This document shows positions 3,067 to 61,167 of a stretch of 64,000 bases of DNA, piece after piece. The DNA comes from Rhodospirillaceae bacterium. GTDB taxonomy: Bacteria > Pseudomonadota > Alphaproteobacteria > Rhodospirillales > Rhodospirillaceae. The stretch lies in contig JAQWRV010000018.1 of assembly GCA_029243545.1 (NCBI GenBank), positions 1 to 64,000 on the forward strand, written 5' to 3'. The stretch's first letter is position 1. The number at the start of each line of letters is the position of its first letter. The notes beneath the pieces are model-generated. The model made no database searches. It saw only the letters and a list, made by a program, of their open reading frames with translations, and was not told the origin of the DNA. The position numbers were made by a program, and so were the translations under genes.

Positions 3067-3273
3067 TGGCCCAAAAAGTCCCTTTACCATTAATCTCGGA
3101 GCGCAACCTAATGGCTTCCGCCCGGGCACACCAGAGGCCGCGCCTGGGGACAGAGCCTGGCCGGTTGCAATGACACCAAAGGCATTTGCTCGCATGGTGG
3201 TGGTCTAGGGTCTAAACTGCATCAAATCGGCAGGGTTTGGCTAAAGTCTGCCCCAATTCAATTGATATTTTCC

Positions 3274-3997: not shown

Positions 3998-3998
3998 C

Positions 3999-6401
3999 AT
4001 GGCATACAAACATATTGGAAAAAACTTCACCCCTCCCGACGTCCGCGCCAAAGTCACGGGCAAAGCAAAGTATTCGGAGGACTTTCGTGCTGAAGGCATG
4101 CTGTTCATCAAATTGCTGACCAGCCCCATGCCGAACGCTCGCGTGCGGAACATCGACTCATCGGCTGCGCTGAAGATGGAAGGCGTTGTCGATATTCTGA
4201 CGGCAGAAGATGTACCCGCCATGCCTGTGCCGCAAACACAAATTCTGACCAACAATCCAAAGTTCGTCGGCGATCCCATTCTAGCAATCGCAGCCGTGGA
4301 CGAAACCACAGCATCCAATGCGCTGGAAGCCATCATCATCGAATACGAACCACTGCCGTTTGTCATCGATCCGTTGCAGAGCTTGTATCCGGGCGGTGTA
4401 GACGCACACGATGACGGCAACGTCACTCAGCGCATGCAGCCCACGCAACGCATCAAATGGACGGCCCGCGATTTCGCTGCCGTCGGTGAAGACGAATTGC
4501 CGCGCGGCGAGCCCCGCGATCAATGGGAATACGGCGATGTGGATGCCGGCTTCGAAAGTGCTGCCGTGGTGCTGGATGAAACGTTCGTCGTCGCCGGACA
4601 TTCGCACCACAGCATGGAGCCCCGCAGTTCTTTCGCCTATTGGGAAAACGGCAAGTGCTACTTGCATGCCTCATCGCAGAGCCACACCTTCAATGTTCCC
4701 GGCTTCGCCGCCTATGTGGGAATCGAGCCTGAAAATATGATTCTTATCGCTGAGTATTGCGGCGGCGGCTTCGGCTCCAAAGGAACCGCCTATCCGATTG
4801 CCAGCCTTTCTGCCCATATGTCGAAGAAAACGGGCCGACCCTGCATGTTGCGTATTACGCGCGCCGAGGAATATTACCTCGGCTCACGGCGCAACGGCTT
4901 CCAGGGCAACGTCAAACTGGCCTTCCGCGACGACGGCAAACTCATCGCCGCCGATATGTATGTTGTTCAACAAAGCGGCGCTAACGACGGCTTCCCCGAT
5001 TACATGAATGCCGGTGGCGCGTTGTCTTTGGTTTACACGCCAGAAGCCATGCGCTGGAAAGGCATTCCAGTGGCCACCAACACGCCGATCACCGGCGCGC
5101 AGCGTGGTCCGGGCCAAAATCAGTTGGCCTGCGTCATGGAACCGTTGATGGATAAAGCAGCGAAAGAACTCGGTGTCGACCGTTTGGTCATTCGCGAAAT
5201 CAACGCCACCAATAATGACTCCAAGTACGCTGACAAACGCATACCTGTATCCAGTGCGTACCTACGCGAAGCTATCCGCAACGGCGCAGAGCGCTTCAAC
5301 TGGGAAGAAAAGAAAAAACAGAGCGGCCAGCGCAACGGCACGAAGGTGACCGGTATCGGTGTCGGCCAGGCGTTCCATCCTGCCGGCGCCACCGGTTTTG
5401 ACGGTTTGGTCAGTATTACGCCGGACGGCAAAGTGCACGTTCACACAGGCGTCGGAAACCTGGGCACTTACTCCTATGCCAGTACATCGAGAATCTCAGC
5501 AGAGGTCCTAGGTTGTTCATGGGAAAACGTTGTAATTGAACGCGGCGACAGCCGTCGGAATCTGCCTTGGAATTTGGGCCAGTTCGGCAGCAACACGTCC
5601 TTCACCATGACACGGACAAATTACGTGGGCGCGATGGACGCTAAGATGAAACTATTGGAAATAGCCGCAATGGATCTCGGCGGCATCGCCGAAGATTACG
5701 ATGTGGGCGGCGACAAAGTATTCTCCAAGGCTGATCCGACCCAAAACTTGACCCTGGCTCAAGCGGCGCAGCGCGCCATCGAACTGGGTGGCAAATACGA
5801 TGGCCACGAAATGAATGAAGATATGCACGCAATAACCAAAGCGTCGGTGACAGCATTGGCCGGGACAGCTCTTGTCGGCGCCGCCAAGGACACGTTGCCG
5901 TCAGAAGGCATGGCCATCGCACTGGCTTCCGCCTTCATGAAAATCGAGCTCGATACGGAAACTGGCAAATACGAGATTCTAGAATACGTCGGCACGGCAG
6001 ATTGTGGAACGGTCGTTCACCCGCAAGGACTTGAACATCAGATTCGCGGTGGCGGTGTCATGGGCATCGGCATGGCGGGACTTGAACGCATCGTGTACGA
6101 CCCGCAAAACGGCCTACCAGCTAACGTTGGTTTCCACCAATCCAAACCACCGTCTTATTTAGACGTCCCTGCTGAAATGGACGTCGGCTACGTAGATAAG
6201 CCGGACCCAAGCAACCCGGTCGGTGCGCGCGGCATCGGTGAGCCATTGCTGGGCTGCGCGGCCTCCGCACTACTCAGTGCCATTTCCGATGCCCTGGGTG
6301 GTGTGTACTTCAATCGCACACCGGTGGTCCCTGACATGATCATCAATGCGCTTGCGGATCGTCCGCAATCGTACAAAACGCTCCAAATGAGCAACCAGTA
6401 A
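3999..6401 (+). CDS. molybdopterin-binding catalytic subunit, xanthine dehydrogenase family
   Basis: An 800-residue catalytic subunit that hydroxylates a heterocycle or oxidises an aldehyde with water as oxygen source. Visible signatures are the glycine-rich loop GGGFGSKGTAYP near residue 255, the cofactor loop GAQRGPGQNQ near 370, and GARGIGEPLLG near 748, whose glutamate is the catalytic base of the family. It has no signal of its own and would be carried across the membrane by the Tat signal on the FeS subunit. An insertion between about residues 140 and 170 (ending GEDELPRGEP) is longer than I expect for the family. It lies between the FeS and FAD genes with tight spacing. The exact substrate is undetermined; aromatic aldehyde or N-heterocycle oxidation fits the neighbourhood. 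Confidence 0.95.
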   Translation: MAYKHIGKNFTPPDVRAKVTGKAKYSEDFRAEGMLFIKLLTSPMPNARVRNIDSSAALKMEGVVDILTAEDVPAMPVPQTQILTNNPKFVGDPILAIAAVDETTASNALEAIIIEYEPLPFVIDPLQSLYPGGVDAHDDGNVTQRMQPTQRIKWTARDFAAVGEDELPRGEPRDQWEYGDVDAGFESAAVVLDETFVVAGHSHHSMEPRSSFAYWENGKCYLHASSQSHTFNVPGFAAYVGIEPENMILIAEYCGGGFGSKGTAYPIASLSAHMSKKTGRPCMLRITRAEEYYLGSRRNGFQGNVKLAFRDDGKLIAADMYVVQQSGANDGFPDYMNAGGALSLVYTPEAMRWKGIPVATNTPITGAQRGPGQNQLACVMEPLMDKAAKELGVDRLVIREINATNNDSKYADKRIPVSSAYLREAIRNGAERFNWEEKKKQSGQRNGTKVTGIGVGQAFHPAGATGFDGLVSITPDGKVHVHTGVGNLGTYSYASTSRISAEVLGCSWENVVIERGDSRRNLPWNLGQFGSNTSFTMTRTNYVGAMDAKMKLLEIAAMDLGGIAEDYDVGGDKVFSKADPTQNLTLAQAAQRAIELGGKYDGHEMNEDMHAITKASVTALAGTALVGAAKDTLPSEGMAIALASAFMKIELDTETGKYEILEYVGTADCGTVVHPQGLEHQIRGGGVMGIGMAGLERIVYDPQNGLPANVGFHQSKPPSYLDVPAEMDVGYVDKPDPSNPVGARGIGEPLLGCAASALLSAISDALGGVYFNRTPVVPDMIINALADRPQSYKTLQMSNQ

Positions 6402-6414
6402 GGAGGACGCAGCA

Positions 6415-7437
6415 ATGTCTAATAAAGATATGATGCCGCAATTCGCGTTGTTTCAGCCTTCCGATATTGAGAATGCACTGGAGTTACTCGAAAAATACGG
6501 AGAGAACGGCTGGCTCGTCGCCGGTGGGCAAGACAGCTTTGACTGGTTTAAGGATCGCGCCAAGCGGCCCGAAGCCGTTATCGACTTGGGTGGCATTGCC
6601 GAACTGACGGGCGTTCGCGAAACCCCTGACGGTATCGAGATCGGTGCCATGACCACGCTCACCGAAATTAGCAACAACACAACTATCAAAAGCCAGTACG
6701 GTCTGCTCTCCGAAGCCGCAGGACGGGTCGCCAGCCCACAAATCCGTAATGCTGGAACCATTGGCGGCAACGTCAGCCAAGATGCGCGCTGCTGGTATTA
6801 CCGCTCGGGGCTCGACTGCTACCGTGCTGGCGGCAACACGTGTTATGCCGATACGCCGGAAGGCATGAACCGCGAACACTGCTTGTTTGGCGCGTCACGC
6901 TGCGTCGCCGTGTCGCCGTCTGATACCGCGGCAGCGATGGTCGCCCTGGATGCCAGCATGGTCATCCGCAGTTCTGCTGCAGAACGTGTCGTCCCTGCTG
7001 AAGAATTCTTCATCGGCCCGGACGTCAACATCACCCGCATGACGGTGGTGGAGGCCGGCGATATTCTCACCGCCATCCGCATTCCCGCCAAGTGGGCCAA
7101 AGCCGAGTTCTATTTTGAAAAAGTAGCCGACCGGAACACCTGGGATTTCCCACTGGTCAATGTGGCCTGCTCGAAGATCGTCAACGGTGGCGTGATTGAA
7201 GATATCCGCATCGCCTGCGCCGGGGTGGAATGCGTACCTAAGCGCATGACCGTGGTGGAAGATATCGTCCGTGGCAGCAACCAGGACGAAGAAACCGCCG
7301 AACTCGGTGGCGGCTCGGCCTCACGGGGTGCGTCACCGCTTAACTACAATCATTTCAAGATCCCGCTCATGGAGAATCTCGTAAAGCGGGCTATAAGAGG
7401 AAACTCAAGCAATGGAACTGTTCCGGTACAGCAGTGA
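6415..7437 (+). CDS. FAD-binding subunit with an extra cysteine cluster, PaoB-like
   Basis: A 340-residue CoxM/PaoB-type flavoprotein subunit that relays electrons from the FeS subunit. The FAD-binding segments are VAGGQDSFDW near residue 36 and the RNAGTIGGNV stretch near 112. Directly after the latter comes an insertion with cysteines in RCWYYRSGLDC, a further C in GGNTCYAD, and C residues in REHCLF and SRC. The same insertion holds a 4Fe-4S cluster in PaoB and in 4-hydroxybenzoyl-CoA reductase beta subunits, so a fourth iron-sulfur centre is likely here. A strong AAGGAGG ribosome site precedes the ATG. Its last 26 bases overlap the start of a small membrane protein gene in another frame. 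Confidence 0.93.
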   Translation: MSNKDMMPQFALFQPSDIENALELLEKYGENGWLVAGGQDSFDWFKDRAKRPEAVIDLGGIAELTGVRETPDGIEIGAMTTLTEISNNTTIKSQYGLLSEAAGRVASPQIRNAGTIGGNVSQDARCWYYRSGLDCYRAGGNTCYADTPEGMNREHCLFGASRCVAVSPSDTAAAMVALDASMVIRSSAAERVVPAEEFFIGPDVNITRMTVVEAGDILTAIRIPAKWAKAEFYFEKVADRNTWDFPLVNVACSKIVNGGVIEDIRIACAGVECVPKRMTVVEDIVRGSNQDEETAELGGGSASRGASPLNYNHFKIPLMENLVKRAIRGNSSNGTVPVQQ

Positions 7438-7597: not shown

Positions 7598-8074
7598 TCA
7601 AATGGGCACGTGCAATCCGATGCCCAGATCGCGGGTGTCGAGCATAACGTCGCGGGCCGTCAAAACGATTTTCTCGTCTATCATATTGACGATATCGATG
7701 TAACGTCCGACGGCGAGTGTGTGTGTTTGCCCTTCAAGATTTGTGTGGTGGACGACAAACGGGCTGGTCACCACCAGAAACCCATCCACATTTGAAGGCT
7801 CCACGGTGGCCACCGTCACCTGACGGTGTAACCGGCCTTGCCGTTGCAAATGCTCCGGCAGACTTTTGAATAGTTCAATCAATCCTTCCCGGTCATGCTC
7901 GAGCCAGGTCATGTCTTTTTTGAGGTCCGGGCTCCAAACCCGGATGCGGTAGTTGAACGGGTCGTCGCAATACCCAAGAAAGCGAGCAAAGTCTCCATCG
8001 TCCAAAGCCAAACCCGCCCCACCGATGAGGGGCCGGACCGCCTCCCGTTCAAGAAGGCGCTTGAGGTCGTTCAT
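7598..8074 (-). CDS. aromatic-ring-hydroxylating dioxygenase beta subunit
   Basis: A 158-residue cone-fold protein (NTF2/SnoaL-like superfamily) of the small-subunit family of Rieske non-haem iron oxygenases. Typical elements are the early acidic segment with RFLGYCDDPFNYRIRVW, the DMTWLEHDREGLIELF helix and a C-terminal beta sheet ending in RDLGIGLHVPI, close in sense to the I(V)LTARDVMLDTRD strand of the family. Its ATG overlaps the alpha-subunit stop (ATGA), as expected for an alpha3beta3 enzyme. Beta subunits are structural rather than catalytic. No ferredoxin or reductase gene accompanies the pair, so electron supply must come from elsewhere. Confidence 0.85.
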   Translation of the reverse strand: MNDLKRLLEREAVRPLIGGAGLALDDGDFARFLGYCDDPFNYRIRVWSPDLKKDMTWLEHDREGLIELFKSLPEHLQRQGRLHRQVTVATVEPSNVDGFLVVTSPFVVHHTNLEGQTHTLAVGRYIDIVNMIDEKIVLTARDVMLDTRDLGIGLHVPI

Positions 8075-9273
8075 GCCGTAGCCGGATCAATTGGGTTTCC
8101 AGGGTCGCGCCCGGTGCGATCACCCCATTCCTTATAAAAGGCGCGAAGAATGGCATCGTCCTGACCGGTGAGGTTTTCGTCCCGCGCGATGATCTGATAA
8201 CGCCCCGCCTGATTGCGAAAACTGTCGGCACAGGCTTCGGCAGCGATCATGTCCTCGGGTACGTTGCGCCCGAACGGGCCCCAATATTGATTGTGATGGC
8301 GTTGACGCGCCTGGCGATGCTCTTGAGATTCCCCTTTAACGCCAAGGCCGCGCATTTCCAACAGCGTTTTATCGGGCCCAAGAGGCGTTGCCGTGTCGAT
8401 GCGAACAACCGTGCCCCGCGCAATGATCGCCGTAGACGGAAACAAATCAACAAAGCGGAAATCTGTTGGATCGGTGCCGGGCAGAGGCGGCACATCGCCC
8501 CCGCGCCCTGCAAAACTTTTGTATCCATCGTAGGCTGCTTTGAGATCGCCGCCGCTGCCGCCGTGGCCGTTCTCAAAGGTAATTAGGCGGCGGTCTTCCA
8601 TGGGCATGGCGCCGACCTGGGTCTGGCGCAAAACCGCATGCATGAACTCGTGATAGAGGTCCATGTTGGTCTCGTGCCAGGCTTTCCAATTACAGTCAAG
8701 TACGGCGCGGTTGTAGTGAAACACCTCAAGCAGAGTTGTGCCGAGCATTTCGGAAAATTGATCCAGCGCCAGTCCAATGAATGTGTCTAGGTCAGGCGCG
8801 CCCTCATCCAGCGCAATAAAAACGAGTCCGTGCTTAACAGCGGTGCGCAGGCCACGCAGCCCCATGCTGTCCTTGGCGACCTCTTTGCTATATCCGGACG
8901 GGCGGGGAATGCCCGTGCAAGCGCCCAGGCTGTCGTAAGTCCAGCGATGATAGAAGCAGGTGATCAAACGAGCGTTACCGGACGGTTCAGTCAGCAGCTT
9001 GCCGCCGCGATGAGAGCACACATTGAGGAAAGTGCGTACCTCGTCGTCTTCGCCGCGAATACAGATGAGCGACTGTCCAGCGTGATCAACCAGCCTGTAG
9101 TCGAACGGCTCCGGTAATTCGCTTTCATGGCAGGCAAACCGCCACGCCTTAGAGAAAATGTTGTCGATTTCGTCTTGGTAAACATCCGGGTCGGTGTAGA
9201 CCAAGCCGGAGACAAAATGCCCGGCCGGTAGGCGCGGCACTTTTTCCCATGATGATTCTGAACGGGCGGACAT
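8071..9273 (-). CDS. Rieske non-haem iron oxygenase alpha subunit
   Basis: A 400-residue catalytic subunit. The Rieske 2Fe-2S centre is bound by CSHRGG and CFYHRW (residues about 87-111). The mononuclear iron site is in the segment NMDLYHEFMHAVL near residue 205, with two histidines and a nearby acidic bridge residue; the third ligand is expected further downstream. It would insert oxygen into an aromatic or heteroaromatic ring, or demethylate or deaminate such a compound. It is coupled to the beta subunit and lies eight bases downstream of the DUF1838 gene, so the two functions probably belong to one pathway. Substrate class cannot be fixed from sequence alone. Confidence 0.92.
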   Translation of the reverse strand: MSARSESSWEKVPRLPAGHFVSGLVYTDPDVYQDEIDNIFSKAWRFACHESELPEPFDYRLVDHAGQSLICIRGEDDEVRTFLNVCSHRGGKLLTEPSGNARLITCFYHRWTYDSLGACTGIPRPSGYSKEVAKDSMGLRGLRTAVKHGLVFIALDEGAPDLDTFIGLALDQFSEMLGTTLLEVFHYNRAVLDCNWKAWHETNMDLYHEFMHAVLRQTQVGAMPMEDRRLITFENGHGGSGGDLKAAYDGYKSFAGRGGDVPPLPGTDPTDFRFVDLFPSTAIIARGTVVRIDTATPLGPDKTLLEMRGLGVKGESQEHRQARQRHHNQYWGPFGRNVPEDMIAAEACADSFRNQAGRYQIIARDENLTGQDDAILRAFYKEWGDRTGRDPGNPIDPATA

Positions 9274-9280
9274 TAACGAC

Positions 9281-10201
9281 CTACTTCTTCACGTAGCCCA
9301 ATCGCGCCAGATTTCGCGCGAGCTTTGACGGCACAGCGTCATTTTCTGGGTTTACATCAAAATCTTCACCGTGTTCCGCCAGCGCTTTGGTCAGATAATC
9401 CTCCGGTAGATCATCCCACGAATTCACCTTGTAAAACTCCACATGCCAAATGACTTGGCCGATCTCCGGGTCGGACATACCAATGGCAGGCATGGACGGC
9501 ATAAGTATTTGTCCAGCGCCGTGGGCGGAGGCGGACGTCACTGCATCATCTTGCAACTCTGATATCTTGGCAAAAAACGATTGATCCTGATTGTAAGGAT
9601 TGCGCACCAGGGGTTCAGGCCATTTCATCTTGGCGTGAAACGATACCGTGTCACCAATCAGCGTCATCTCAATGTCGTTGATAGAATCGTTGGCATAAAA
9701 ATCGGGGAAAGCGTCATCGATAATATTGATGGTGACCCCTTTCTTGGAAATAGTCTGCCCCTCAGGTACCCGACTCCAGTTGGGTCTGAACGTCACATCC
9801 TCGCCGGTAATCGGATTGGTAAACCCGTCGATGATCTTGTCGGTTTCCATATGGCTGTAATAGGTCAGCAAAGACGTATATTTCACATATTCCGACGGAC
9901 CGGTGGGTTTAATCCACTGCTGCTCACAGCCCTTAAAGCGCACCAAGGGAACAGGAGAATTCGGAGCTTTAAAGCCATAAATCACACCCCGCGTCCGCCA
10001 AATCACTTTGCCTTCATCGGTGCGAGCTTGCTGCTTTACCAAGGCATGCAACCGGTCTTCTTCAGTCCAGTCTTCAATGCGGTCTGGCAGCCTGCGATGA
10101 CTGGCTGCCCGCGCTGGTTTTGTCAGATAAGTTGCTGCCCCTAAACCACCAGCACCTGCGGTGAGCAAAGCATTGCGTCGGGAGAATGTGGAATTCGGCA
10201 T
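9281..10201 (-). CDS. Tat-exported DUF1838 protein
   Basis: About 306 residues with an N-terminal twin-arginine signal (FSRRNALLTAG) followed by a hydrophobic stretch and cleavage near PARAA. The mature part has the DUF1838 look: an early RVIWRTRGVIYGF-like strand, many aromatic residues in beta strands, and a final helical segment. No enzymatic motif is obvious and the family has no firm biochemical role known to me. The ATG at 10201 is preferred over an ATG 13 codons upstream because TAGGAG lies seven bases before it and the Tat motif follows directly. The gene sits between an alpha/beta hydrolase and the Rieske oxygenase in a tight leftward run, so a role in the same periplasmic substrate processing is likely. 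Confidence 0.8.
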   Translation of the reverse strand: MPNSTFSRRNALLTAGAGGLGAATYLTKPARAASHRRLPDRIEDWTEEDRLHALVKQQARTDEGKVIWRTRGVIYGFKAPNSPVPLVRFKGCEQQWIKPTGPSEYVKYTSLLTYYSHMETDKIIDGFTNPITGEDVTFRPNWSRVPEGQTISKKGVTINIIDDAFPDFYANDSINDIEMTLIGDTVSFHAKMKWPEPLVRNPYNQDQSFFAKISELQDDAVTSASAHGAGQILMPSMPAIGMSDPEIGQVIWHVEFYKVNSWDDLPEDYLTKALAEHGEDFDVNPENDAVPSKLARNLARLGYVKK

Positions 10202-10211
10202 AAATCCGCTC

Positions 10212-11144
10212 CTACTTGGTCTTGTAAATTTGTTCAGCAAACGCTCGGAGGTCAGTATTAAAACGCTCGGGCGATTCGATAAATGGGGAATGGCCGACCC
10301 CAGGATATATCAGAACGTCTGCCTCTGGCATGGCCGCACGATAGGCGTCTGCTAATTCCAGAGAATCCCGCAACGGATCGCTGCCACCCAGAACAACACG
10401 AAATGGCAACTTGATCTCATTGACAAGATTGGCATAGCTGCGTTCCACCTCACCCGTGGGGCCAATAGTCGGCGCACGCATGGCCCGGCGGGCATAGGGT
10501 GGCGCCAAAAGGTTCATGGCTGTCGAAAGCGTTTCCCATTCAGCGCTTTGTTGTTCTATGGTCATTAGACTCGCGAAGGTTTGCGCTCCAAGAATATTCT
10601 GTTCGATGTCGTTTGTTTCCAACTGCACCTGGCTTACCCGCGCTGGGTTATCTTCTCCTGGCAATGACACCGTGACGAGGCGGCCACGGGAGCCAACCAT
10701 AACGATACCCGACAGATCATCGGTTCCCCGGCAGCGCACATAGTGCATGGCGATGAGGCCGCCGCGTGACCAAGCCACAACAATCGGGTTCTTCAGTCCC
10801 GTGGCCTCCAATACCGCCTCAATATCTTCTGCCCAGATACAAGCGTGACTGTAGTCTTCACCTCGCCAGGGTTTGCCTGAGTTACCGTGGCCACGCAGGT
10901 CGTAAGCGACCAAATGAAAGTCGTCAGCCAGTCCTGAATTCAGTTGTTTGGTCCAGCTGATATAACTCTGGCCATTGCCGTGAATGAACAAAATTCCGGG
11001 ACGGCCGGGCTCTCCCACCTCGGCAACATTGATGGGTACACCGCCATGCCCTTCAACCATCTGAAGCGAAATCTGAAGCTCAGCGGAAACCGCGGATGCC
11101 GCGGCAAATAGAAACCCAGCCAAGAACGCCAAACGCTTCATCAT
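10212..11144 (-). CDS. exported alpha/beta hydrolase
   Basis: A 310-residue hydrolase with a Sec signal peptide (hydrophobic core in AFLAGFLFAAASAVSA). The alpha/beta fold is shown by the oxyanion strand ILFIHGNGQS, the LVAYDLRGHGNSGKP turn, a nucleophile elbow AWSRGG near residue 134 in which the usual first glycine is alanine, and the C-terminal catalytic histidine in GVGHSPFIESP. The acid is likely the aspartate in LGGSDPLRDS. It probably cleaves an ester, lactone or amide in the periplasm. Its start overlaps the end of the upstream solute-receptor gene (ATGA), linking hydrolysis to uptake. Confidence 0.85.
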   Translation of the reverse strand: MMKRLAFLAGFLFAAASAVSAELQISLQMVEGHGGVPINVAEVGEPGRPGILFIHGNGQSYISWTKQLNSGLADDFHLVAYDLRGHGNSGKPWRGEDYSHACIWAEDIEAVLEATGLKNPIVVAWSRGGLIAMHYVRCRGTDDLSGIVMVGSRGRLVTVSLPGEDNPARVSQVQLETNDIEQNILGAQTFASLMTIEQQSAEWETLSTAMNLLAPPYARRAMRAPTIGPTGEVERSYANLVNEIKLPFRVVLGGSDPLRDSLELADAYRAAMPEADVLIYPGVGHSPFIESPERFNTDLRAFAEQIYKTK

Positions 11145-12676
11145 GGACGCACCGTGATCTGTTCCATATTGATTCGCCCACCTGTCGTTGGCAATTCGTT
11201 AAGATGCGGCGCATAAGCCAGGGTATCGAAGTAGGGAAATAGATATATGGCCGGAGGATCATAGTGGAGTGCGGCGACAAGATTTTGCAGCATCACTTCG
11301 CGCTTATCTGTATCAAACTCCTTGTTGCTCTCTTCAATGAGCGTAAGCATGTCTTCCCGGCAGAAAAAAGCCCCCGCTTTAAGGCATGACGCGGTTTCTA
11401 TACTACGGATCACATCACCATGAATGGTGTTATTGAAACTGGTCTCGAGAATTTGTGAACTGCCCCAATCTCCAGAAAAGTAGTGCCCCAACCAACGCTG
11501 GCCCGGAACTTGATTGAGCCGGACTTCAACGCCAATCTTGGCGAGGTCTTGCGCAACTACCTGGCCAATCAGTATCTGCTCTGGCACTGAAGGATCGCTG
11601 CGTACAAGGGCTTCCAACTGCAACCCATCACCGTATCCCGCTTCAGTGAGCAGCGCGCGGGCCGCTTCTGGATCATAGGGAAACAAAGGCAGGTCGGGGT
11701 TGTAGCCATAGACCTCAGCAGTGGCGACCTGAGAGACGGGTGAAGTGACAGCGCTCAGAATTGTCTTTGCAATGGACTCCCGGTCAATGGCCAAGTTCAA
11801 CGCACGCCGCACCCGCGTATCAGACAACGGCGACTCTGGGTCGATTTGGCGAAAAGCCCAAGCGCCGATGGAATAGGTTTGCCGTGCGACCGTGTTGAAA
11901 CCTTGTGCTTTGAGGTCTTTGAGTAAATCCAAGCTGAGTTTGAACGATAGATCGATCTGACCGCTGGTCATGGATTGCGCCCGGCTGACAACATCCCCAA
12001 CACCAAAAAAGTGCACTTCGTCAAAATGAGCCGATGGCCGCCATGATGCCGGATTGCGTTCAAACACATAGAAACCAGTGGTCTGACCCCAATCCTTCAG
12101 TTTAAACGGCCCTGACCCTGCGGGTTCAAGACCGAAGTGGTCGACCCCAACTTCGTTCCAATATCGCATCGGAACCATGTAGACAAAGCTCATGCGCTTG
12201 GGCAGCAAGGCATCGGGGCGGTTTGTTCTGATCAACACCGTAAATTCATCAACCAATTCTGCAGAGTCGATCATCGCCGTTTCATTGGCGACGGGGTAAC
12301 CAGCGGCAGCCTCACTTCTCAGATAGGTCACCACATCGACAACGGTCTGCGCGTTGAAGACTTCGCCGTTTGAGAAGGTAATGTCAGGCCGCAGTTGAAA
12401 CACCCACGCATCATCGCCTTGGTGCTCCCAACTTACTGCTAATGCGGGGAGAATAGCCCCCTCTTCACCAACCATGGTCAATGCGTCATACAGGAGATGC
12501 ATTGGATTGATCGCGCCAATGGGTAACGTGGAATAGGGATTGCCAAGACCTGGAGGGCGGCCCGCTACGGCAACGCGCAACGCTTTAGCCGCGTCGTCAG
12601 CCTTCACTGGTATCTGCAGCGTAAACAGCAGCACAACCAGCGCACACAGCTGAACGATTCTCAGGAACGCGGTCAT
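11141..12676 (-). CDS. ABC transporter solute-binding protein, family 5 (peptide/opine/nickel type)
   Basis: A 511-residue periplasmic receptor. The signal peptide spans the first 26 residues (LVVLLFTLQIPVKA). Family 5 signatures include NPMHLLYDALTMVGEEGAI, a segment with FQLRPDITFSNGEVFNAQTV, and the hinge VRRALNLAIDRESIAKTIL near residue 290. No permease or ATPase gene is nearby, so it must work with a transporter encoded elsewhere or deliver ligand to the adjacent periplasmic enzymes. A paralogue lies at 36333-37874. The gene is followed with overlap by the alpha/beta hydrolase. Confidence 0.9.
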   Translation of the reverse strand: MTAFLRIVQLCALVVLLFTLQIPVKADDAAKALRVAVAGRPPGLGNPYSTLPIGAINPMHLLYDALTMVGEEGAILPALAVSWEHQGDDAWVFQLRPDITFSNGEVFNAQTVVDVVTYLRSEAAAGYPVANETAMIDSAELVDEFTVLIRTNRPDALLPKRMSFVYMVPMRYWNEVGVDHFGLEPAGSGPFKLKDWGQTTGFYVFERNPASWRPSAHFDEVHFFGVGDVVSRAQSMTSGQIDLSFKLSLDLLKDLKAQGFNTVARQTYSIGAWAFRQIDPESPLSDTRVRRALNLAIDRESIAKTILSAVTSPVSQVATAEVYGYNPDLPLFPYDPEAARALLTEAGYGDGLQLEALVRSDPSVPEQILIGQVVAQDLAKIGVEVRLNQVPGQRWLGHYFSGDWGSSQILETSFNNTIHGDVIRSIETASCLKAGAFFCREDMLTLIEESNKEFDTDKREVMLQNLVAALHYDPPAIYLFPYFDTLAYAPHLNELPTTGGRINMEQITVRP

Positions 12677-12715
12677 AAGAAACTTACCCGAACACTCTGT
12701 GCGATCTGCTTACAC

Positions 12716-14815
12716 TCAAACCTGGATATATTCACCGTCCATTTTTTCTTCATCCGCCAAAGTTTTGGGCTTTGGTGGCGCAGCATCACCCGGCTTGTCG
12801 AAATCAGGCTGCGCTTTGCCCGGCACTGACAGCGAACGGGACGAAGCGACAGTCGGCGGCACGAAAATGCCGCGCTCGAAATAACTGGCCAGCTTTTTCT
12901 TCAGCGGCTTCATGCCCCGATACGGATTCTCCATAGGATCTGTCGCCAGATTATTTTCCAGCCCCACATCGGCAGCATAGTCGTTCACATAAACGTTGGG
13001 ATCATCCCACATGGGTAAATTGATATGCGGATTGGCACGGGCGCGGCGCAAGGCCAGCAAATCGACCGTACCCGCCAGAACTGCGGCTCCCGGCGTATCC
13101 AGCACACCCTGGATAGAGCCATCGAAATTCACCATTTTAGAATAGCCGCGCATCTGATTGGTGTGTTCATAGTGTGAGTCCGGGTCAAACTGCTCCCCAC
13201 CCGGCAACGGAGACAAGATGTAGGCCACGTTTTCAAAGGCGCGGGTCTGGCGGGCGAAATCCCAGCCACGGCGGCCCGAACCATGCCCTTCGGACGATGG
13301 GTGAATAATCACCTCGGCGCCTTTCTTCACCATCATGCGCACGATCTCAGGATGGGCCTGATCAAAGCAAACGATGGTGGCCAACTTGCCTATGGGTGTG
13401 TCGACGACGGGAAATAAGAAATCATAACCATAGGTATCGAGATAGCGGTCATAGATGCTGCTCGGCGTTGTATCGGGCAATGAGCCCCACACGTCTGCAC
13501 ATTGAATTTTGCGGTAGCGGTGAATGAGATCACCGGAGTCATTCAAGATGAAGGCAGAGTTAAAAACGTAGCCCGGTAGTTTATCGTCAATCTCAAAGGT
13601 CGAGCCGGAGAGATAGACTTTGTGCTTAAGGGCAAATTCAGAGAGCAGTTCCATCTCTGGGCCAGGGTAGCGGATCGCCAAGCGCTGCAACGTTATCGGC
13701 GAGCGGTAACCGTGCCCCCCCTGCCCGGTCATAAAGAATTCAGACAGCGCCACCAATCTCACATTGGGGTTAGACGCGGTCCGGCCGGGAAGAATAAGCG
13801 CGCGTTTAATATTCTCGGTGCGCAACGCATGTACGTCCGACGTCTTTTGAATCATCTTCTTAACGGATTGCACTAAAAGGACGTCGTATTCGGTTTCGTG
13901 ACCAGTGCCTTCCATCGCTTTCGAAGACTCCAACCGGGTGCGCGCCTCGGTAACATAAGCTTCGCGGTTTTTTGGAATATCGGGAGCCTTATCCTGTGCT
14001 GCGATCATTTTCTTGTAGCCGTCAGCATAGAGGTTAGCCCGCAGGTGCAGGGCCTGGATGGAAAAAATCGCTGCCCGCTTGCGGCGTAGCTTGTCGATAT
14101 ACACGTCTGCCTTGATGACATCTTCATCAGACTTGGCAAGGAGTTGCTTGCCGTTCCAGTCTGATAATCCACTGGCCCGGGGGAAAGCAGACGCCATGCC
14201 ATTGAGCCCCCGGGACACAGCGGACGACGTGGCGATGAAAGCTGCGTTCTCAAAGGCGCGCGCCATGCGCGCATTTTGCCGCGCGTCAAAAAGATCGTCG
14301 GCCACTTCTTCAGATGGATTGAGAATGACTTCCGCGCCTTTCCACACCAGGCTGCGCGCATAGTGCGGGAAGAGAATATCTTCGCCGGGCAAAATGCCTA
14401 CCTGCCCAATGGGCGTATCCGCCACTTTAAAATCCATCGCCTGGCCGAGCGCCGATGATTGCTCAGATGCGATGCCATTGATCAGTTCCGGCGAGATCTT
14501 CTCTACTTCGATGAGCACCTCGCCAACCGAACTGATGAGAAACCCGAGCGTGCAGGGCACGTCAGCCTTATTGCTTTTCACGAGCACCGACCCGGCGAGG
14601 AACACGTTTTTCTCCGCCGCGAGATCACTCAAAGATTTAAGGAGACCCTTGCGGTCATGGGTCGTCTCTCCATCTGACGAATGGGGCAGCAAAATAACCG
14701 CCTCGATCGGGTCCACCACTTCAAAGCGCCCATTGGAGGCGTTGATGGATTCGATGTGTTCTGAGAGGGCATCAATCCCATCGGGGGACCAGCATTTTTG
14801 TGAAATGTAGAGCAT
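12716..14815 (-). CDS. double-domain nitrilase-superfamily protein 1
   Basis: A 699-residue cytoplasmic protein made of two carbon-nitrogen hydrolase domains in tandem. The C-terminal domain keeps the Glu-Lys-Cys triad: glutamate in ALSEFFMTG, lysine in HRYRKIQCAD and cysteine in TIVCFDQAHPE. The N-terminal domain has lost it: the glutamate position reads LLPHSSDG and the cysteine position reads GILPGEDILFP, with proline instead of cysteine. The start at 14815 (MLYISQKCW) is chosen because it aligns with the starts of the two paralogues at 18571 and 21408 and has AAGGA nine bases upstream. It is the second gene of the leftward amine-oxidase-to-Rieske run. It probably hydrolyses an amide or nitrile; substrate unknown. 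Confidence 0.87.
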   Translation of the reverse strand: MLYISQKCWSPDGIDALSEHIESINASNGRFEVVDPIEAVILLPHSSDGETTHDRKGLLKSLSDLAAEKNVFLAGSVLVKSNKADVPCTLGFLISSVGEVLIEVEKISPELINGIASEQSSALGQAMDFKVADTPIGQVGILPGEDILFPHYARSLVWKGAEVILNPSEEVADDLFDARQNARMARAFENAAFIATSSAVSRGLNGMASAFPRASGLSDWNGKQLLAKSDEDVIKADVYIDKLRRKRAAIFSIQALHLRANLYADGYKKMIAAQDKAPDIPKNREAYVTEARTRLESSKAMEGTGHETEYDVLLVQSVKKMIQKTSDVHALRTENIKRALILPGRTASNPNVRLVALSEFFMTGQGGHGYRSPITLQRLAIRYPGPEMELLSEFALKHKVYLSGSTFEIDDKLPGYVFNSAFILNDSGDLIHRYRKIQCADVWGSLPDTTPSSIYDRYLDTYGYDFLFPVVDTPIGKLATIVCFDQAHPEIVRMMVKKGAEVIIHPSSEGHGSGRRGWDFARQTRAFENVAYILSPLPGGEQFDPDSHYEHTNQMRGYSKMVNFDGSIQGVLDTPGAAVLAGTVDLLALRRARANPHINLPMWDDPNVYVNDYAADVGLENNLATDPMENPYRGMKPLKKKLASYFERGIFVPPTVASSRSLSVPGKAQPDFDKPGDAAPPKPKTLADEEKMDGEYIQV

Positions 14816-14887
14816 GTGTGCGAGTCCTTCTTGGACGTTGTTGGTTTGTTCATCAGTTTCTATGGACAGACTATAACAATGTGAACG

Positions 14888-14913
14888 CAAAATGGGCATG
14901 GGAGCACGCCCAT
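14888..14913 (-). terminator. possible weak terminator hairpin
   Basis: ATGGGC at 14892-14897 and GCCCAT at 14908-14913 form a perfect six-pair stem with a ten-base loop. On the minus strand the stem is followed by TTTTGC. It lies in the 159-base gap between the amine oxidase and double-nitrilase genes, so it could attenuate read-through. The stem is short and the T-run has only four bases. Confidence 0.3.
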
Positions 14914-14974
14914 CATACGCTACTTGCTCGCGCAATGAGCAGTCAATTTCAGGTAAAAACCCTCTCCCCCGCCC

Positions 14975-16447
14975 CTATCCCAGGCGGTCCAGGACCTCGA
15001 TCGCGGCACGCTCTCCCGACTCCATGGCGGATTCCATGCCGATTTCCAGCCGCCGCGTATGTTCCCCCGCAAAATGAAGGCGATGGTGCGGTCGTATCAT
15101 GTCATGGGCGAATTTATTCACCTGCCCTGGCCAGAATGAATGCCGGAACCCGCCCACCAGGGGATGCTCCGACCAGGAATGTAGAGCGGTAACCCTGAGT
15201 TTACCTTTGGTCGATGGCCGCATGCGTTCGATTTCTTTAACCACAAAAGCACCGCGTTCCTGTGGAGGGAGCAGATCCAGCCGTTCAGATTTCTTACCGA
15301 CACAGACCGCTTGCAGATAATCCCGATTACCATCACCGCCAATTTTCTGCCGGATCAGCGATAATGGTCCATCACTCCAGATCGATGGATCAAACCCATC
15401 CTCTTCCCAATACGCGCCGTCGGTAACACGCATATGGACTTGTGAGTTTGCGCGGTAGGGCAAAAGGCGAATAGCCTCGGCTTGATTGCCTTGCGGCGGT
15501 GGATCAATCGCCACCCGTGACAGGGTAGTAAACGGCAGCGCCGAAATCACAAAGTCTGCCCGGTATCGCGTACCGTCCATGCATCGCACATTGGCTACTT
15601 CGCCAGCGCTTTCAATACTGGTGACGATCTTGTTGAGACGAACAGAGTCACCCAAAGTCGCCGCCATCGCTTCGGGCAAACGTGACGTTCCTCCCTCGAT
15701 GCGATGGCTGGTGGGGCCCCGTTTCTGAAACCGATCCAGTCCTCGCGGTGTGTTTTCGCCGGAGAACCAAAGACGGCCCCGGGCATCGTTGTGGAGCAGA
15801 TGCAACGCAGAGACGTTCCATATGTCGGCATCGATCGGTCCCGCATTGATCAACCGCAACGCCTCGTCTGATGCGCCGTGCTGCCTCAACCATTGCCCAA
15901 GAGGGATGTCGTAAGCGGCTGCATGGGGCTCAAGCCAATCGTCGAAGCCCTTCAAAGGATTATGGTTCTCAAAATAATGATCGAGAAGAACGGACGGCGG
16001 AACTGAACGTTCATCGCCAACCGTTTCATTGAGTGCATGATTGTTCCATGAGTCGCGCGACAACAGAGTTTCGTTAATGGAAAAAGCATACGGCGCAGTG
16101 AGATTGGCACCGGGTAGAAGCTTCACACCCAACCGGTCCGCCATATCACGCACACGTGCATAGTAGGGCCCCACTTGCGAGGCTCCCAATTCTGGCCGCC
16201 CTTCAACATGATCCCCGGTAAAAGCGCGCCCGCCGACACGGCCCGCCCCCTCCAGAACAATGACCTTATACCCTTCATCACGGAGCAGAATCGCCGCATT
16301 GAGACCGGCAAAACCGGCGCCAAGCAAAAGGACATCGACTTGGTCATCAGCCGCCAAACCGTTGGATGGCAGCCCGGCACCTAAAGAGATCGCGCTTCCT
16401 TGAAGCAGCTGCCGCCGTGTTAAGGCTCTTGTGATTGCTCTTGCCAA
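14975..16447 (-). CDS. Tat-exported flavin amine oxidase 1
   Basis: A 490-residue FAD-dependent amine oxidase. The N-terminus has a twin-arginine motif (LTRRQLLQG). The dinucleotide fold follows with DVLLLGAGFAGLNAAILLRD, the glutamate of VIVLEGAGRVGGRA that binds the ribose, and the ELGASQVGP region. The C-terminal FAD contact is HFAGEHTRRLEIGMESAMES. Such enzymes oxidise primary or secondary amines to imines and make hydrogen peroxide; with this signal the reaction would be periplasmic. The start appears to be TTG at 16447 with a GGAG upstream; no in-frame ATG precedes the Tat motif. A paralogue is at 41081-42529. It heads the leftward catabolic run. Confidence 0.88.
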   Translation of the reverse strand: MARAITRALTRRQLLQGSAISLGAGLPSNGLAADDQVDVLLLGAGFAGLNAAILLRDEGYKVIVLEGAGRVGGRAFTGDHVEGRPELGASQVGPYYARVRDMADRLGVKLLPGANLTAPYAFSINETLLSRDSWNNHALNETVGDERSVPPSVLLDHYFENHNPLKGFDDWLEPHAAAYDIPLGQWLRQHGASDEALRLINAGPIDADIWNVSALHLLHNDARGRLWFSGENTPRGLDRFQKRGPTSHRIEGGTSRLPEAMAATLGDSVRLNKIVTSIESAGEVANVRCMDGTRYRADFVISALPFTTLSRVAIDPPPQGNQAEAIRLLPYRANSQVHMRVTDGAYWEEDGFDPSIWSDGPLSLIRQKIGGDGNRDYLQAVCVGKKSERLDLLPPQERGAFVVKEIERMRPSTKGKLRVTALHSWSEHPLVGGFRHSFWPGQVNKFAHDMIRPHHRLHFAGEHTRRLEIGMESAMESGERAAIEVLDRLG

Positions 16448-16855: not shown

Positions 16856-17866
16856 ATGACTTCAATCATCCGGCAACTCATCACATCTGCTGTCCTTCTC
16901 ATGCTTACGGCCACTACTGGTCATGCCCAAATTTCCATTATCGGCGGCACAACGGGCGTGGCTGACACGACAGCGGGATACCAAAAATGGATGATGTACC
17001 GCGGCCAGTTAGCTGAACTTTCCAAGGGAGACATATCGATCACGCCAATGGTCGGGGGCGAGTTGGGCTCTGAAGAAAACATTTTCAATGGCGTGAGGCG
17101 CGGCCGTATTCAGATCGCTAATCTGTCCGGGCTTGTGATCGGTACGGTGGTGCCGGAAGCAGCCCTTTTGGCAGCCCCCTTCCTATTCGACTCAGAAGCC
17201 CAGGCCGATCATATCTACGATACAGTGCTATTCGATATTTACAGCGACCTGCTCGCCGAACACGGCATCACATTCTTGTCCTGGGATGACGTTGGCTTTC
17301 GCCAGGTCTATGGCAAGACGCCCATTCTCGTTCCTGAAGACTTGCAAGGGACGCGGTATCGCATTCCCTCAGGTCTGGCGACACGGTTATTTGCCGAAGC
17401 AGTAGGCAGTGATGTTATCCCGTTATCCTTCAATGAAAACACCATCGGCTTACAAACCGGCCTCGTGGATGCAGGCGGGAATGCCGTCATTCTCTATGCG
17501 GGCACAGGCATTGCGGAAGAAGCACCTCATCTGACCCTGACGAGCCACATACAGATGACCAACTTTGTCATTTGCAGCACGCGTTGGCTGGAGAGCTTGT
17601 CTCCCACTCAGCGAGAAGTCATTCGGGCTGGCTGGATTCCCATGGATTTGGCCAGATCTATGTCGCGCGATGAAGAGAAGGACTTTCTCGCCCGTGCAGA
17701 CGATATCGGTTTCACCATCCATGAACTCACTGACGCTCAACGACAGGCGTGGCGCGAAGCCGCAGCACCGGTCACACCGCAGATTATAGAATCAATCGGG
17801 GGGCGGTCGGTAGAAATTTACCAGGCCATCCAAGATGCGAAGGCGGCCTACAAAGACCAGCCTTAA
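16856..17866 (+). CDS. TRAP transporter solute receptor, DctP family, without permease partner
   Basis: A 336-residue periplasmic receptor with a signal peptide cleaved after GHAQ. The DctP fold is indicated by the GRIQIANLSG strand, AALLAAPFLFDSEAQADHIY helix, the region around GTRYRIPSGLATRLFAEAVG that usually holds the carboxylate-binding arginine, and the LQTGLVDAGGNAV dimer/hinge segment. No DctQ or DctM genes adjoin it, unlike the complete system at 49339-52209, which may share its permease. It begins six bases after the dead pirin gene and ends by overlapping the convergent NAD(P)-fold gene by four bases. Confidence 0.87.
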   Translation: MTSIIRQLITSAVLLMLTATTGHAQISIIGGTTGVADTTAGYQKWMMYRGQLAELSKGDISITPMVGGELGSEENIFNGVRRGRIQIANLSGLVIGTVVPEAALLAAPFLFDSEAQADHIYDTVLFDIYSDLLAEHGITFLSWDDVGFRQVYGKTPILVPEDLQGTRYRIPSGLATRLFAEAVGSDVIPLSFNENTIGLQTGLVDAGGNAVILYAGTGIAEEAPHLTLTSHIQMTNFVICSTRWLESLSPTQREVIRAGWIPMDLARSMSRDEEKDFLARADDIGFTIHELTDAQRQAWREAAAPVTPQIIESIGGRSVEIYQAIQDAKAAYKDQP

Positions 17867-18567
17867 TCAAACGACGAAAACGAGCCGACCATTTTACTGT
17901 CGATGGTGTGAAATACCTTGCCGATGGTTGCGTCATCATCCAAAGCTTTGACCACCAACACACCCAGCTCGCCCATGGTGATACGGCCCATCAAAGTCTG
18001 ATCTCCATAGAGAACACCGGTTCCAGTCGCCGGACCTTCCGGGAGCTGGCCGGGCCGCAAAATCGTCCAATCTAGGTCTCGGCTTTTAAGGTCAGTTTCC
18101 GCGATCGTCTTGGCATCTAAGACCGCCTTGAGAAATTGGCGCGCTCGATCTTCCAACACGCCATCTGTACCGCCCGCCCCGATGGCCGTAACCAGCACCA
18201 AGCGCTTTACGCCCGCACGTTCGGTCGCCTCGAATACATTGATGTTGCCCTGACTGTCCACGGCGGTATTGCGCACGCTACCGCCTATGGTCGAAATGAC
18301 CGAATCAAATGGACCCGCTGCAAATGCTGAGTCGACGGTGTCTGATTGCAGAGCATCACCAACAACCAAAGCCACACCTAAGTCTTTAAGGGCCGATGTG
18401 TCCGACGTCTCACGCACGAAGGCCGTTACAGCATCACCTCGCGCTACAAGAATTTTAGCCGTCTCTAACCCTGTATTGCGGGTCGCTCCAAAGATAAGAA
18501 TATCGTCGGCCAGCGTAGCTGTCGGCATCGTGACCAGGCTCAACCAACACAGAACAACACGTAGCAT
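17863..18567 (-). CDS. exported NAD(P)-binding atypical SDR protein 1
   Basis: A 234-residue NmrA/atypical-SDR protein. It starts with a Sec-type signal (VVLCWLSLVTMPTATLA) directly before the Rossmann strand ILIFGATRNTGLETAKIL, whose GxxxxTG pattern binds NAD(P). Further family marks are VGDALQSDTVDSAF, SVISTIGGS, and the late ILRPGQLPEGPATG segment. A secreted dinucleotide-fold protein is unusual because the periplasm lacks free NAD(P). The ATG follows the stop of the double-nitrilase gene by three bases, so the two are an operon pair, repeated upstream as 21408/20599. Function unknown; perhaps it binds another ligand. Confidence 0.82.
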   Translation of the reverse strand: MLRVVLCWLSLVTMPTATLADDILIFGATRNTGLETAKILVARGDAVTAFVRETSDTSALKDLGVALVVGDALQSDTVDSAFAAGPFDSVISTIGGSVRNTAVDSQGNINVFEATERAGVKRLVLVTAIGAGGTDGVLEDRARQFLKAVLDAKTIAETDLKSRDLDWTILRPGQLPEGPATGTGVLYGDQTLMGRITMGELGVLVVKALDDDATIGKVFHTIDSKMVGSFSSFD

Positions 18568-18570
18568 GAG

Positions 18571-20553
18571 TTATTCAGCCGCCTGTGCTGGTTTGTTGGC
18601 TACGCCGCTTGGCGCAACAAAGATGCCATGCTTTATGTAACCGTCGACCACCTTCTTGATTTCTGCCCCGCCAAAGTAAGGATTGCCCAGCGGATCATCG
18701 GGCCAGATGTTATTGGGTAGACCGCGAGGCGTCTTGCCATATTCATCTGCATAAACAACCGCGTCGTCCCATAGCGCCACATTGGCCTGGAGGTCCGCGC
18801 GGGCTTTTCGCAAAGCCACCAAATCAATCTGGCCACCGAGGGGCACTGCACCTGACGTATCCGCTTCCGCCTGGATGGACCCATCGAAATTGACGATCTT
18901 GGAATACCCGCGTCCGCGTGAACTCCGGTATTCTCGACCAGGCAAGAAGAATTCTCCGCCATGCCCACTGGAAATGACATAGGCGACGTTTTCAAACGCA
19001 CGCATGCGGCGGGCTGAGTCCCATCCCATGCGGTGGGCACCATGTGGTTCCGACGTCGGATGGAGAATAACTTCCGCGCCGCGGCGCACCATGGCACGAT
19101 AGGTTTCGGGGAAATTGTTGTCGAAACATATGGTCGTCGCCAATTTACCGATCGGTGTATCGGCTACAGGAAACAAATGTTCGTAGCCGTATATATCAAC
19201 GTATTGGTCGTAGACACTACCGGGCGTGGTGTCGGGCAAGAAACCCATGGCATCGCCACAGTGAATTTTGCGGTAGCGGTGAATTAAATCTCCCGATGGG
19301 CTGTAAATGAACGCCGTATTAAAAAAGCGTTGGGGCCACTCTGGATCGTATTCGAATACACCGCCGACGACGTAGGCATCTACTTCTTGGGCGAAGGCGG
19401 CAACCTGATCCATTTCCGGCCCAGGAAACGTCACCCCAATTTTATCGGCGATATGCCCCAGCTTGTGACCCAAGGGACTGACCGGTCCCGTGAGAAAGAA
19501 TTCCGGGTAAACAATAAGTTTTAAATTTGGGGCACGGGCACCGTAGTTGCGGATAAGGTCAAAGGCGTCATCCAAGTTGGCTTGACGTTTTTCGACCAGT
19601 TCTTCCAGCCTGTGGGATTGATGCACAACATGCTGGCCGATCATTGCACTATAAGAACTGATCTCATTGGGCTTTGGTGTTGCGGCTTGAGCTGCGGCCC
19701 GGCTGTTCCCTTCCGCAATCCAGTCGGTACGGGTTTGCGGTGAAGCCGTCGCTTCTCCGGCCTCTTTCTCATAACCCGGCGCATACAAATTCATCCGCAC
19801 GATGCCGGCAAAGTTGAGCTGCACGCCCATGCGGCGTTGACGCAAACTTTCGATGCTGATTTCAGCCCGTGTGAATGACTCTGAGCCGCGCACGCGTAAC
19901 GCTGCGCCTTGGGGCGGATAAAGCGCTGTCGCTTCGGGAAGAGACGCAGTCCCGCCGTTCAGCGTTGCCGTAGTCGCCGAGGCTGTGGCGAGATAGACCA
20001 AATTCTCATAGGCCCGCGCCGTGCGGGCGACGGTGCGACTTTCAAACAAACGATCAGACCGTTCGCGCGCGGGATTGAGAATAATCTCAGCCCCTTGAAC
20101 CATCATGGTGCGCACCAAATGAGGCGCGAGAATGTCTTCGCCACAGAGAATGCCGATCTGCCCCAGCGGTGTTTTAGCGATTTGAAATTTCGCCGGCTGG
20201 AAGGTGTCTGCGGCGGTATCCGTATATCCTTCAAGAATATCCGGCATAACCTTGGGCGTGTTGACTAGAACATCGCCGTTAGGTCCGACGATAAACCCCA
20301 CTGTGCGGGTCGCAGAGTCCTTATTACCCCTAACGTATGCGGAGGCCCCGATATAAAGATCATGTGCCTTGGCCAGACTCGACAGTGCGTTTGTAACATC
20401 GATCTCCGCACTAGCTTCATGCTCAGAGCCATCTGCATGGGGCAGAATAGCGATCGCGGCCCCTTCCGCAACGGTCGTCTGTCGCGCTTGCGTAAGGGCT
20501 GCTTCAGCAGCGTCTAGGTTAGTTGGCGTCCACGGGGTTTGCAGGAGAAACAT
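18571..20553 (-). CDS. double-domain nitrilase-superfamily protein 2
   Basis: A 660-residue protein with two nitrilase domains. The C-terminal domain holds glutamate in VYPEFFLTG, lysine in HRYRKIHCGD and cysteine in TICFDNNFPE, so it should be an active amidase/nitrilase-type enzyme. The N-terminal domain retains the cysteine (GILCGEDILAP) and a lysine (VNTPKVMPD) but has histidine instead of the catalytic glutamate (ILPHADGS). There is no signal peptide. GGAGGG lies seven to eight bases before the ATG. It is followed at three bases by an exported NAD(P)-fold gene and preceded by the same two-gene module. Confidence 0.88.
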   Translation of the reverse strand: MFLLQTPWTPTNLDAAEAALTQARQTTVAEGAAIAILPHADGSEHEASAEIDVTNALSSLAKAHDLYIGASAYVRGNKDSATRTVGFIVGPNGDVLVNTPKVMPDILEGYTDTAADTFQPAKFQIAKTPLGQIGILCGEDILAPHLVRTMMVQGAEIILNPARERSDRLFESRTVARTARAYENLVYLATASATTATLNGGTASLPEATALYPPQGAALRVRGSESFTRAEISIESLRQRRMGVQLNFAGIVRMNLYAPGYEKEAGEATASPQTRTDWIAEGNSRAAAQAATPKPNEISSYSAMIGQHVVHQSHRLEELVEKRQANLDDAFDLIRNYGARAPNLKLIVYPEFFLTGPVSPLGHKLGHIADKIGVTFPGPEMDQVAAFAQEVDAYVVGGVFEYDPEWPQRFFNTAFIYSPSGDLIHRYRKIHCGDAMGFLPDTTPGSVYDQYVDIYGYEHLFPVADTPIGKLATTICFDNNFPETYRAMVRRGAEVILHPTSEPHGAHRMGWDSARRMRAFENVAYVISSGHGGEFFLPGREYRSSRGRGYSKIVNFDGSIQAEADTSGAVPLGGQIDLVALRKARADLQANVALWDDAVVYADEYGKTPRGLPNNIWPDDPLGNPYFGGAEIKKVVDGYIKHGIFVAPSGVANKPAQAAE

Positions 20554-55675: not shown

Positions 55676-55706
55676 AACGTGCTCCTTATTCTTTAGCCCT
55701 TGCCCA

Positions 55707-57110: not shown

Positions 57111-57281
57111 GTTCTCTCCCTGATGCGTTTTCATTAATGGCGATGATACGCCTATTGGCTTTTATTGGCACACAGTAGTTCTGCCCGGCCACAACCCGAG
57201 CAAAAGGGACGCAGCCCTTGCCGTGCCTGGCTGTGCGGGTGAGGATGAGCGCTGAATTCAAGGTTTAGGCGGAGACCGGAC

Positions 57282-61152: not shown

Positions 61153-61167
61153 GACATGCACCTCTAT

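Follow-up and report, generated by a model that had tools for sequence, protein, structure and literature searches.

The window, a 64-kb stretch of DNA from a Rhodospirillaceae genome, carries a run of seven minus-strand genes between positions 7598 and 16447 that an earlier note had proposed to be a new catabolic operon led by an amine oxidase. All seven genes lie where they had been placed, and each of the families named for them scores above the Pfam curated cut-off: Rieske and Ring_hydroxyl_A, Ring_hydroxyl_B, Abhydrolase, SBP_bac_5, CN_hydrolase in two stretches, Amino_oxidase and, marginally, DUF1838. The claimed close packing is borne out by the measured junctions, with 4-base overlaps between the Rieske beta and alpha genes and between the genes for the hydrolase and the family-5 solute receptor (SBP5), a 7-base gap between the Rieske alpha and DUF1838 genes and a 39-base gap between the receptor gene and that of the fused nitrilase NIT1. 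What had been overlooked is a larger surrounding block that includes two further fused nitrilases (NIT2 and NIT3), two NmrA-like proteins, a tripartite ATP-independent periplasmic (TRAP) receptor and, at 3338-7437, a molybdenum (Mo) hydroxylase with a signal of the twin-arginine translocation (Tat) type (Table 1). Judging from its nearest named relatives, which are metagenome-assembled 'Rhodospirillaceae' or Alphaproteobacteria whose isolate names include ANT-94, SI073 and SFB, the organism is an alphaproteobacterium. These relatives may come from marine or estuarine habitats, as read from the isolate names alone.

Table 1. Features of the conserved block and its flanks in the 64-kb window
Feature	Position	Strand	Evidence and remarks
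Cytochrome b561-type membrane protein adjoining hydroxylase	2428..3195	-	PF01292 61.8 bits; syntenic in g2, G001, G022
2Fe-2S subunit of Mo hydroxylase, Tat signal	3338..3997	+	Fer2_2 and Fer2; syntenic 81-89%
Mo-binding subunit	3999..6401	+	xanthine dehydrogenase/4-hydroxybenzoyl-CoA reductase family; syntenic 74-82%
FAD subunit	6415..7437	+	assigned by eye and synteny (79-82%)
Rieske oxygenase beta	7598..8074	-	Ring_hydroxyl_B (PF00866) 32.5 bits; single match genome-wide
Rieske oxygenase alpha	8071..9273	-	Rieske (PF00355) and Ring_hydroxyl_A (PF00848) over cut-off
DUF1838 protein, twin-arginine signal (SRRNALLTAGA)	9281..10201	-	PF08894 26.5 bits (cut-off 25); ATG 10201; orthologs 67-78%
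Secreted alpha/beta hydrolase	10212..11144	-	Abhydrolase_6 92.6 bits; N-terminal signal sequence; orthologs 56-62%
Family-5 solute receptor (SBP5), Sec signal	11141..12676	-	SBP_bac_5 193.6 bits; sister-genus orthologs 68-70%
NIT1, fused nitrilase, first gene of unit (probable)	12716..14815	-	CN_hydrolase in two stretches; ATG 14815 is the conserved start
Palindrome TGCTC-N7-GAGCA (TGCTCGCGCAATGAGCA)	14925..14941		ahead of NIT1; candidate operator
Amine oxidase, Tat signal	14975..16447	-	Amino_oxidase 155.7 bits; outside conserved unit
TRAP receptor DctP1	16856..17866	+	DctP 158.7 bits; syntenic 61-66%; part of conserved block
NmrA/NAD(P)-binding protein, signal sequence	17863..18567	-	NAD_binding_10; syntenic in most sister-genus genomes
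NIT2, second fused nitrilase	18571..20553	-	nitrilase alignment; syntenic 71-80%
NmrA/NAD(P)-binding protein, signal sequence	20599..21318	-	syntenic 67-82%
NIT3, third fused nitrilase	21408..23405	-	nitrilase alignment; syntenic 74-77%

A comparison with the six genomes of a sister genus that are collinear over the region revealed a clear conservation of six of the seven genes, from NIT1 at 14815 through SBP5, hydrolase, DUF1838 and Rieske alpha to Rieske beta at 7598. Protein identities are 55-80% for these six genes and about 55-82% across the collinear region, and the sister-genus order reads NIT3, NmrA-like, NIT2, (NmrA-like), TRAP receptor, NIT1, SBP5, hydrolase, DUF1838, Rieske alpha, Rieske beta. 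The Mo hydroxylase genes face the Rieske end of the unit there as they do here, and in most of the six genomes a pirin gene lies on the other strand beside the TRAP receptor. Thus the synteny search that the earlier note had asked for found the genes kept together, the amine oxidase excepted. Moreover, the order NIT1-SBP5-hydrolase-DUF1838 is preserved across three genera with its 4-base overlaps and tight gaps; more specifically, two small genomes of another genus (G022 and G036) have NIT3-NIT1-SBP5-hydrolase-DUF1838 plus the Mo hydroxylase. Looser versions are found in G005, where DUF1838 comes immediately after NIT1 and genes for SBP5, a hydrolase and an amine oxidase lie close by, in G024, which has an SBP5-NIT pair, and at a second g2 locus, where a fused nitrilase lies directly ahead of DUF1838. 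The cluster is real and conserved, and no description of a pathway with this gene combination was found in the literature searched, as had been supposed. It is probably a variant of known catabolic operons and not a new kind of system.

The proposed place of the amine oxidase as first gene is not supported. It is absent at the homologous place in nine relatives, and in the sister genus NIT1 is there the first gene of the strand run. The genome has 13 amine-oxidase paralogs, of which the nearest to the window's copy is 59% identical. Its closest kin (55-60%) are a copy on contig C26 and one counterpart in each related genome searched, the incomplete G036 excepted. A tandem amine-oxidase pair, found as a tandem in G022 and the sister genus too, lies at C26:165442-168381; of the two C26 genes the first is the nearer to the window's enzyme. 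Because it is missing from the relatives' blocks and is one of many paralogs, we treat it as a lineage-specific insertion and an accessory end-piece. The gap of 159 bases that separates it from NIT1 was given exactly (amine-oxidase stop at 14975, NIT1 ATG at 14815), and it contains the palindrome TGCTCGCGCAATGAGCA, which is probably the weak hairpin noted before and is the sole exact TGCTCN7GAGCA in the window. The same palindrome precedes NIT1 elsewhere, exactly in G043 and G023 and with one change in G037 and G052. This conservation suggests a candidate operator with transcription from NIT1, so that the unit probably starts at NIT1 and not at the amine oxidase. A general scan for terminators and promoters gave a result no better than shuffled sequences.

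NIT1 had been described as a double nitrilase. Two CN_hydrolase stretches are indeed present, but the two domains are not equivalent. The catalytic E-K-C of the C-terminal domain is intact in 14 of 14 aligned fused nitrilases, whereas in the N-terminal domain the E is replaced by H, Q, L or A and the C by G in all 14, with the K retained in 13; the N-terminal domain is seemingly inactive. The best fold matches of the NIT1 structure model (predicted template modelling score 0.74, mean predicted local distance difference test score, pLDDT, 68) are formamidase, beta-ureidopropionase and aliphatic amidase. The sequence profiles agree, and nitrile- and cyanide-cleaving enzymes rank lower by both sequence and fold. 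By resemblance, 'nitrilase' should here be read as a predicted amidase or carbamoylase. No description of a dead/active fusion of this kind was found in the literature searched, and the plasmids searched held no full-length fused nitrilase. Six of the 22 nitrilase genes in this genome are fused, and carrier genomes have 2-7 of them. Other fused nitrilases adjoin Mo enzymes of two different families, in arrangements conserved between genera (C21, L041, and C7, L040, of this genome; L141 and L142 of G037; L143 of G001).

The distribution of the fused enzymes follows that of DUF1838. The latter occurs in 19 of 73 family genomes, all within six genera, and fused nitrilases in 17 of the 73, every one of them a DUF1838 carrier. 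Outside the family a single copy was found in one of 141 other alphaproteobacterial genomes (E<=1e-20). Copy numbers reach 20-38 per genome in a few alphaproteobacterial genera; this genome has 41 matches in about 34 genes, and the window's protein is a divergent member, 17-22% identical to the strong paralogs. The literature searched is nearly silent on the family, with a passing mention only. AlphaFold predictions of seven sequences (pLDDT 30) gave no usable fold, a viral scan for further DUF1838 sequences found none, and the plasmids searched held no match to the window's protein.

The Rieske pair, for which ring hydroxylation had been proposed, is confirmed in both subunits. The Rieske ligands C86, H88, C106 and H109 of the alpha subunit (CxH...CxxH) and the 2-His-1-carboxylate residues H208, H212 and D372 are invariant in the alignment, and the best PDB profile matches are 7yls, 9o71, 7vju and 7q04; all equivalog cut-offs are far from reached. 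Whereas the genome contains 14 Rieske matches, the beta subunit is the only one of its kind. As the defining step of the unit, ring hydroxylation is weakened by the absence of the pair from the block in G001, G022 and G036. In G001, a member of the sister genus, DUF1838 is directly followed by the Mo hydroxylase. In a tree of NIT1, SBP5 and DUF1838, G001 branches at the base of its genus with a support of 98 and falls within the clade shared with this genome, so that the pair was most likely lost there. In G022 a 60% relative lies on another contig and groups with the operon copies in the alpha-subunit tree. From this pattern of occurrence we regard the pair as an optional, accessory end-piece of the unit. 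The nearest outside relatives (L057 and L054) have the Rieske pair followed by SBP5 and ATP-binding cassette (ABC) permeases, and the association of this oxygenase with SBP5-type uptake is therefore probably old. An isochorismatase-type hydrolase gene lies upstream of the pair in L057, and ureidoglycolate lyase genes are found near pair relatives at L057:14770-15258 and L059:14151-14729. In G056 (L033) the Rieske alpha and Mo-subunit genes have frame breaks, probably sequencing errors.

Similar combinations recur elsewhere in the genome. A second operon, on C27, reads nitrilase-SBP5-Rieske-permease-permease, and a run on C23 reads SBP5-Rieske-Rieske-DUF1838-DUF1838; the Rieske proteins of both are of the VanA type, another class than that of the window. 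With contig ends, where not given, approximated as the last match plus 2 kb, 4 of the 12 Rieske genes have both an SBP5 gene and a DUF1838 or nitrilase gene within 5 kb (<=5 kb), against 0.17 expected (p 0.0003), and 3 of 11 do so when the window is left out (p 0.002). As to uptake, the family-5 receptor, of the kind that serves peptide-type ABC importers, stands as claimed, and the claim is weakened by the lack of a permease in the block. Indeed, a permease lies within 6 kb of only 6 of the 44 SBP5 genes in the genome; for the other 38, uptake would therefore need transporters encoded elsewhere. The whole genome has only 15 genes for binding-protein-dependent (BPD) permeases versus these 44 receptors.

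Taken together, the families found bear out the proposed joining of C-N hydrolysis, a solute receptor and ring hydroxylation. The best reading is that the unit is one of several modules by which nitrogenous organic matter of the amide or ureide type is taken up, hydrolysed and oxidised. More specifically, we consider it, with a probability of about 0.5, to be a conserved module for the catabolism of organic nitrogen compounds, amides or ureides with an aromatic or heteroaromatic part being the most likely substrates. The anatomy, the synteny and the catalytic residues are established, while the substrate, the order of steps and the roles given here to the dead domain and to DUF1838 are inferred. 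By their signal sequences, as judged by eye, the Mo hydroxylase, the hydrolase, DUF1838 and SBP5 would be exported across the inner membrane, while NIT1 and the Rieske enzyme would stay in the cytoplasm; because of these predicted locations the order would be periplasmic conditioning, uptake, hydrolysis and ring dihydroxylation. Conditioning or binding of the substrate in the periplasm would fall to the Mo hydroxylase, DUF1838 and the secreted hydrolase, and SBP5 would pass the substrate on to one of a small number of Dpp-type ABC transporters whose genes lie elsewhere. Inside the cell, an amide or N-carbamoyl bond would be cleaved by the C-terminal domain of NIT1, the dead N-terminal domain serving as a fused structural or specificity partner, and the Rieske enzyme, where present, would dihydroxylate the ring.

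Several points weigh against this module. The block has no ferredoxin or reductase gene for the Rieske enzyme, and a search with one relative's reductase as query, run without a positive control, gave no match in four genomes; likewise, the block's lack of a permease extends to the window's contig, which has no BPD_transp_1 match. DUF1838 has no related solved structure and no known function. In a Hydrogenophaga-type outside group the neighbours of the Rieske pair are TRAP and meta-cleavage genes, and an amidase is absent. Of the three Rieske genes that the triple co-location test counts outside the window, two lie in the same cluster, and tests of Rieske, DUF1838 and SBP5 genes by pairs across the genome gave co-location that was weak or mostly not significant. 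The last result also counts in favour of a rival reading, in which the block is a conserved neighbourhood of expanded paralog families, acting on several unrelated substrates and held together by shared regulation or drift. The 44 SBP5, about 34 DUF1838, about 22 nitrilase and 13 amine-oxidase genes fit such a neighbourhood, as do the coming and going of the Rieske and amine-oxidase genes. We consider it unlikely, though the most probable of the alternatives; against it stand the order of four genes kept through three genera with overlaps and tight gaps, and the p of 0.0003 for the triple co-location.

A pathway for oxidised purines, hydantoins or similar ureides would give the same genes a narrower task: the Mo hydroxylase would oxidise the heterocycle, the Rieske enzyme open it to further attack and the nitrilases cleave carbamoyl groups. 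It accords with a Mo hydroxylase of the xanthine dehydrogenase family, which has the three-subunit 2Fe-2S/Mo/FAD plan of xanthine dehydrogenases and aldehyde oxidases, with the closeness of the NIT fold to formamidase and beta-ureidopropionase and with the ureidoglycolate lyase genes of L057 and L059. In addition, Rieske enzymes are involved in purine oxidation in Klebsiella (PMC7373994). The Mo subunit, however, matches its family while staying far below every equivalog cut-off, no RNA match was obtained for a purine riboswitch in the window, and the block itself yielded no allantoin or ureidoglycolate genes; we hold this pathway to be improbable. A synthetic or modifying system, with the fused nitrilase acting like an amidotransferase on a compound made by the cell, is very improbable: from general knowledge a dead/active amidase fusion with secreted partners is unusual in a degradation operon, but a receptor, a Rieske pair and a Mo hydroxylase are what one usually finds in systems of uptake and oxidation, and relatives of the Rieske pair have genes for importers, 4-hydroxy-2-oxovalerate aldolase and acetaldehyde dehydrogenase as neighbours. 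Very little weight is left for the seven-gene operon of the earlier note, taken as one in which deamination comes before nitrile hydrolysis and ring hydroxylation, for which the shared strand, a gap of just 159 bases and the amine-oxidase paralog near NIT1 in G005 are outweighed by the nine relatives without the gene, the palindrome conserved where NIT1 is the first gene and the amidase-like active domain.

Beyond the six-gene unit, NmrA-like NAD(P)-binding proteins with export signals (Sec or Tat) are encoded on the minus strand at 17863-18567, 20599-21318 and 61168-61986. Export is unexpected of a fold that depends on a nucleotide. Two of these genes lie between the fused nitrilases. Overlapping the end of the FAD-subunit gene, an open reading frame at 7412-7567 (+) encodes a 51-residue single-helix membrane peptide, and G001 and G047 show a similar frame at this position. 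Local paralog expansion is also indicated by three M24-type peptidase-like genes, of which two carry clear export signals, and by two tandem formylglycine-generating-enzyme-like genes at 54302-58682 and 59050-61161, their families assigned by eye.

The joint expansion of DUF1838 and the fused amidases is the unexpected part of the finding. At about 34 genes in a 3.5-Mb genome, this unstudied secreted family would make up an estimated ~1% of the genes, and its carriers nearly always have fused amidases too. We tentatively propose, as a possibility at somewhat less than even odds, that DUF1838 represents a new secreted class of enzymes or binding proteins for nitrogenous dissolved organic matter, functionally paired with the dead/active amidases in an undescribed modular system for resistant organic nitrogen in a few aquatic alphaproteobacterial genera. 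If true, the uptake and breakdown of dissolved organic nitrogen by such modules would offer a way into a little-understood part of nitrogen and carbon cycling.

The components of the proposed catabolic module can be compared with known systems. The Rieske pair shares the invariant Rieske and iron residues and the adjacent beta subunit with the naphthalene, terephthalate and phenylpropionate dioxygenase families; it differs from them in having no adjoining reductase or ferredoxin gene and in its coupling to an amidase fusion and DUF1838. Alpha subunits 48%, 41% and 41% identical, with a beta-type partner, are found in Hydrogenophaga sp. PBL-H3, Paraburkholderia graminis PHS1 and plasmid pAKD33, and, as in the block, genes for solute receptors or transporters lie nearby. 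These three loci differ in their TRAP or major facilitator superfamily transporters, their aldolase and acetaldehyde dehydrogenase, their sulfite/sulfate exporters and the absence of nitrilase and DUF1838. An arylsulfonate pathway, for which the exporters near the plasmid relatives were the cue, was dropped, the relatives being 39-48% identical and without nitrilase or DUF1838. The C-terminal NIT domain has the fold and the E-K-C of formamidase, aliphatic amidase, beta-ureidopropionase and N-carbamoylputrescine amidase, whereas the NITs, unlike these enzymes, are fused to a second nitrilase domain without the E and C (14 of 14). Finally, the expansion of DUF1838 and the fused amidases is comparable in style to the paralog expansions described for SAR202 (PMC6946804). 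That case concerns another phylum and other enzyme families, the ones multiplied here being DUF1838, fused nitrilases, SBP5 and amine oxidases.

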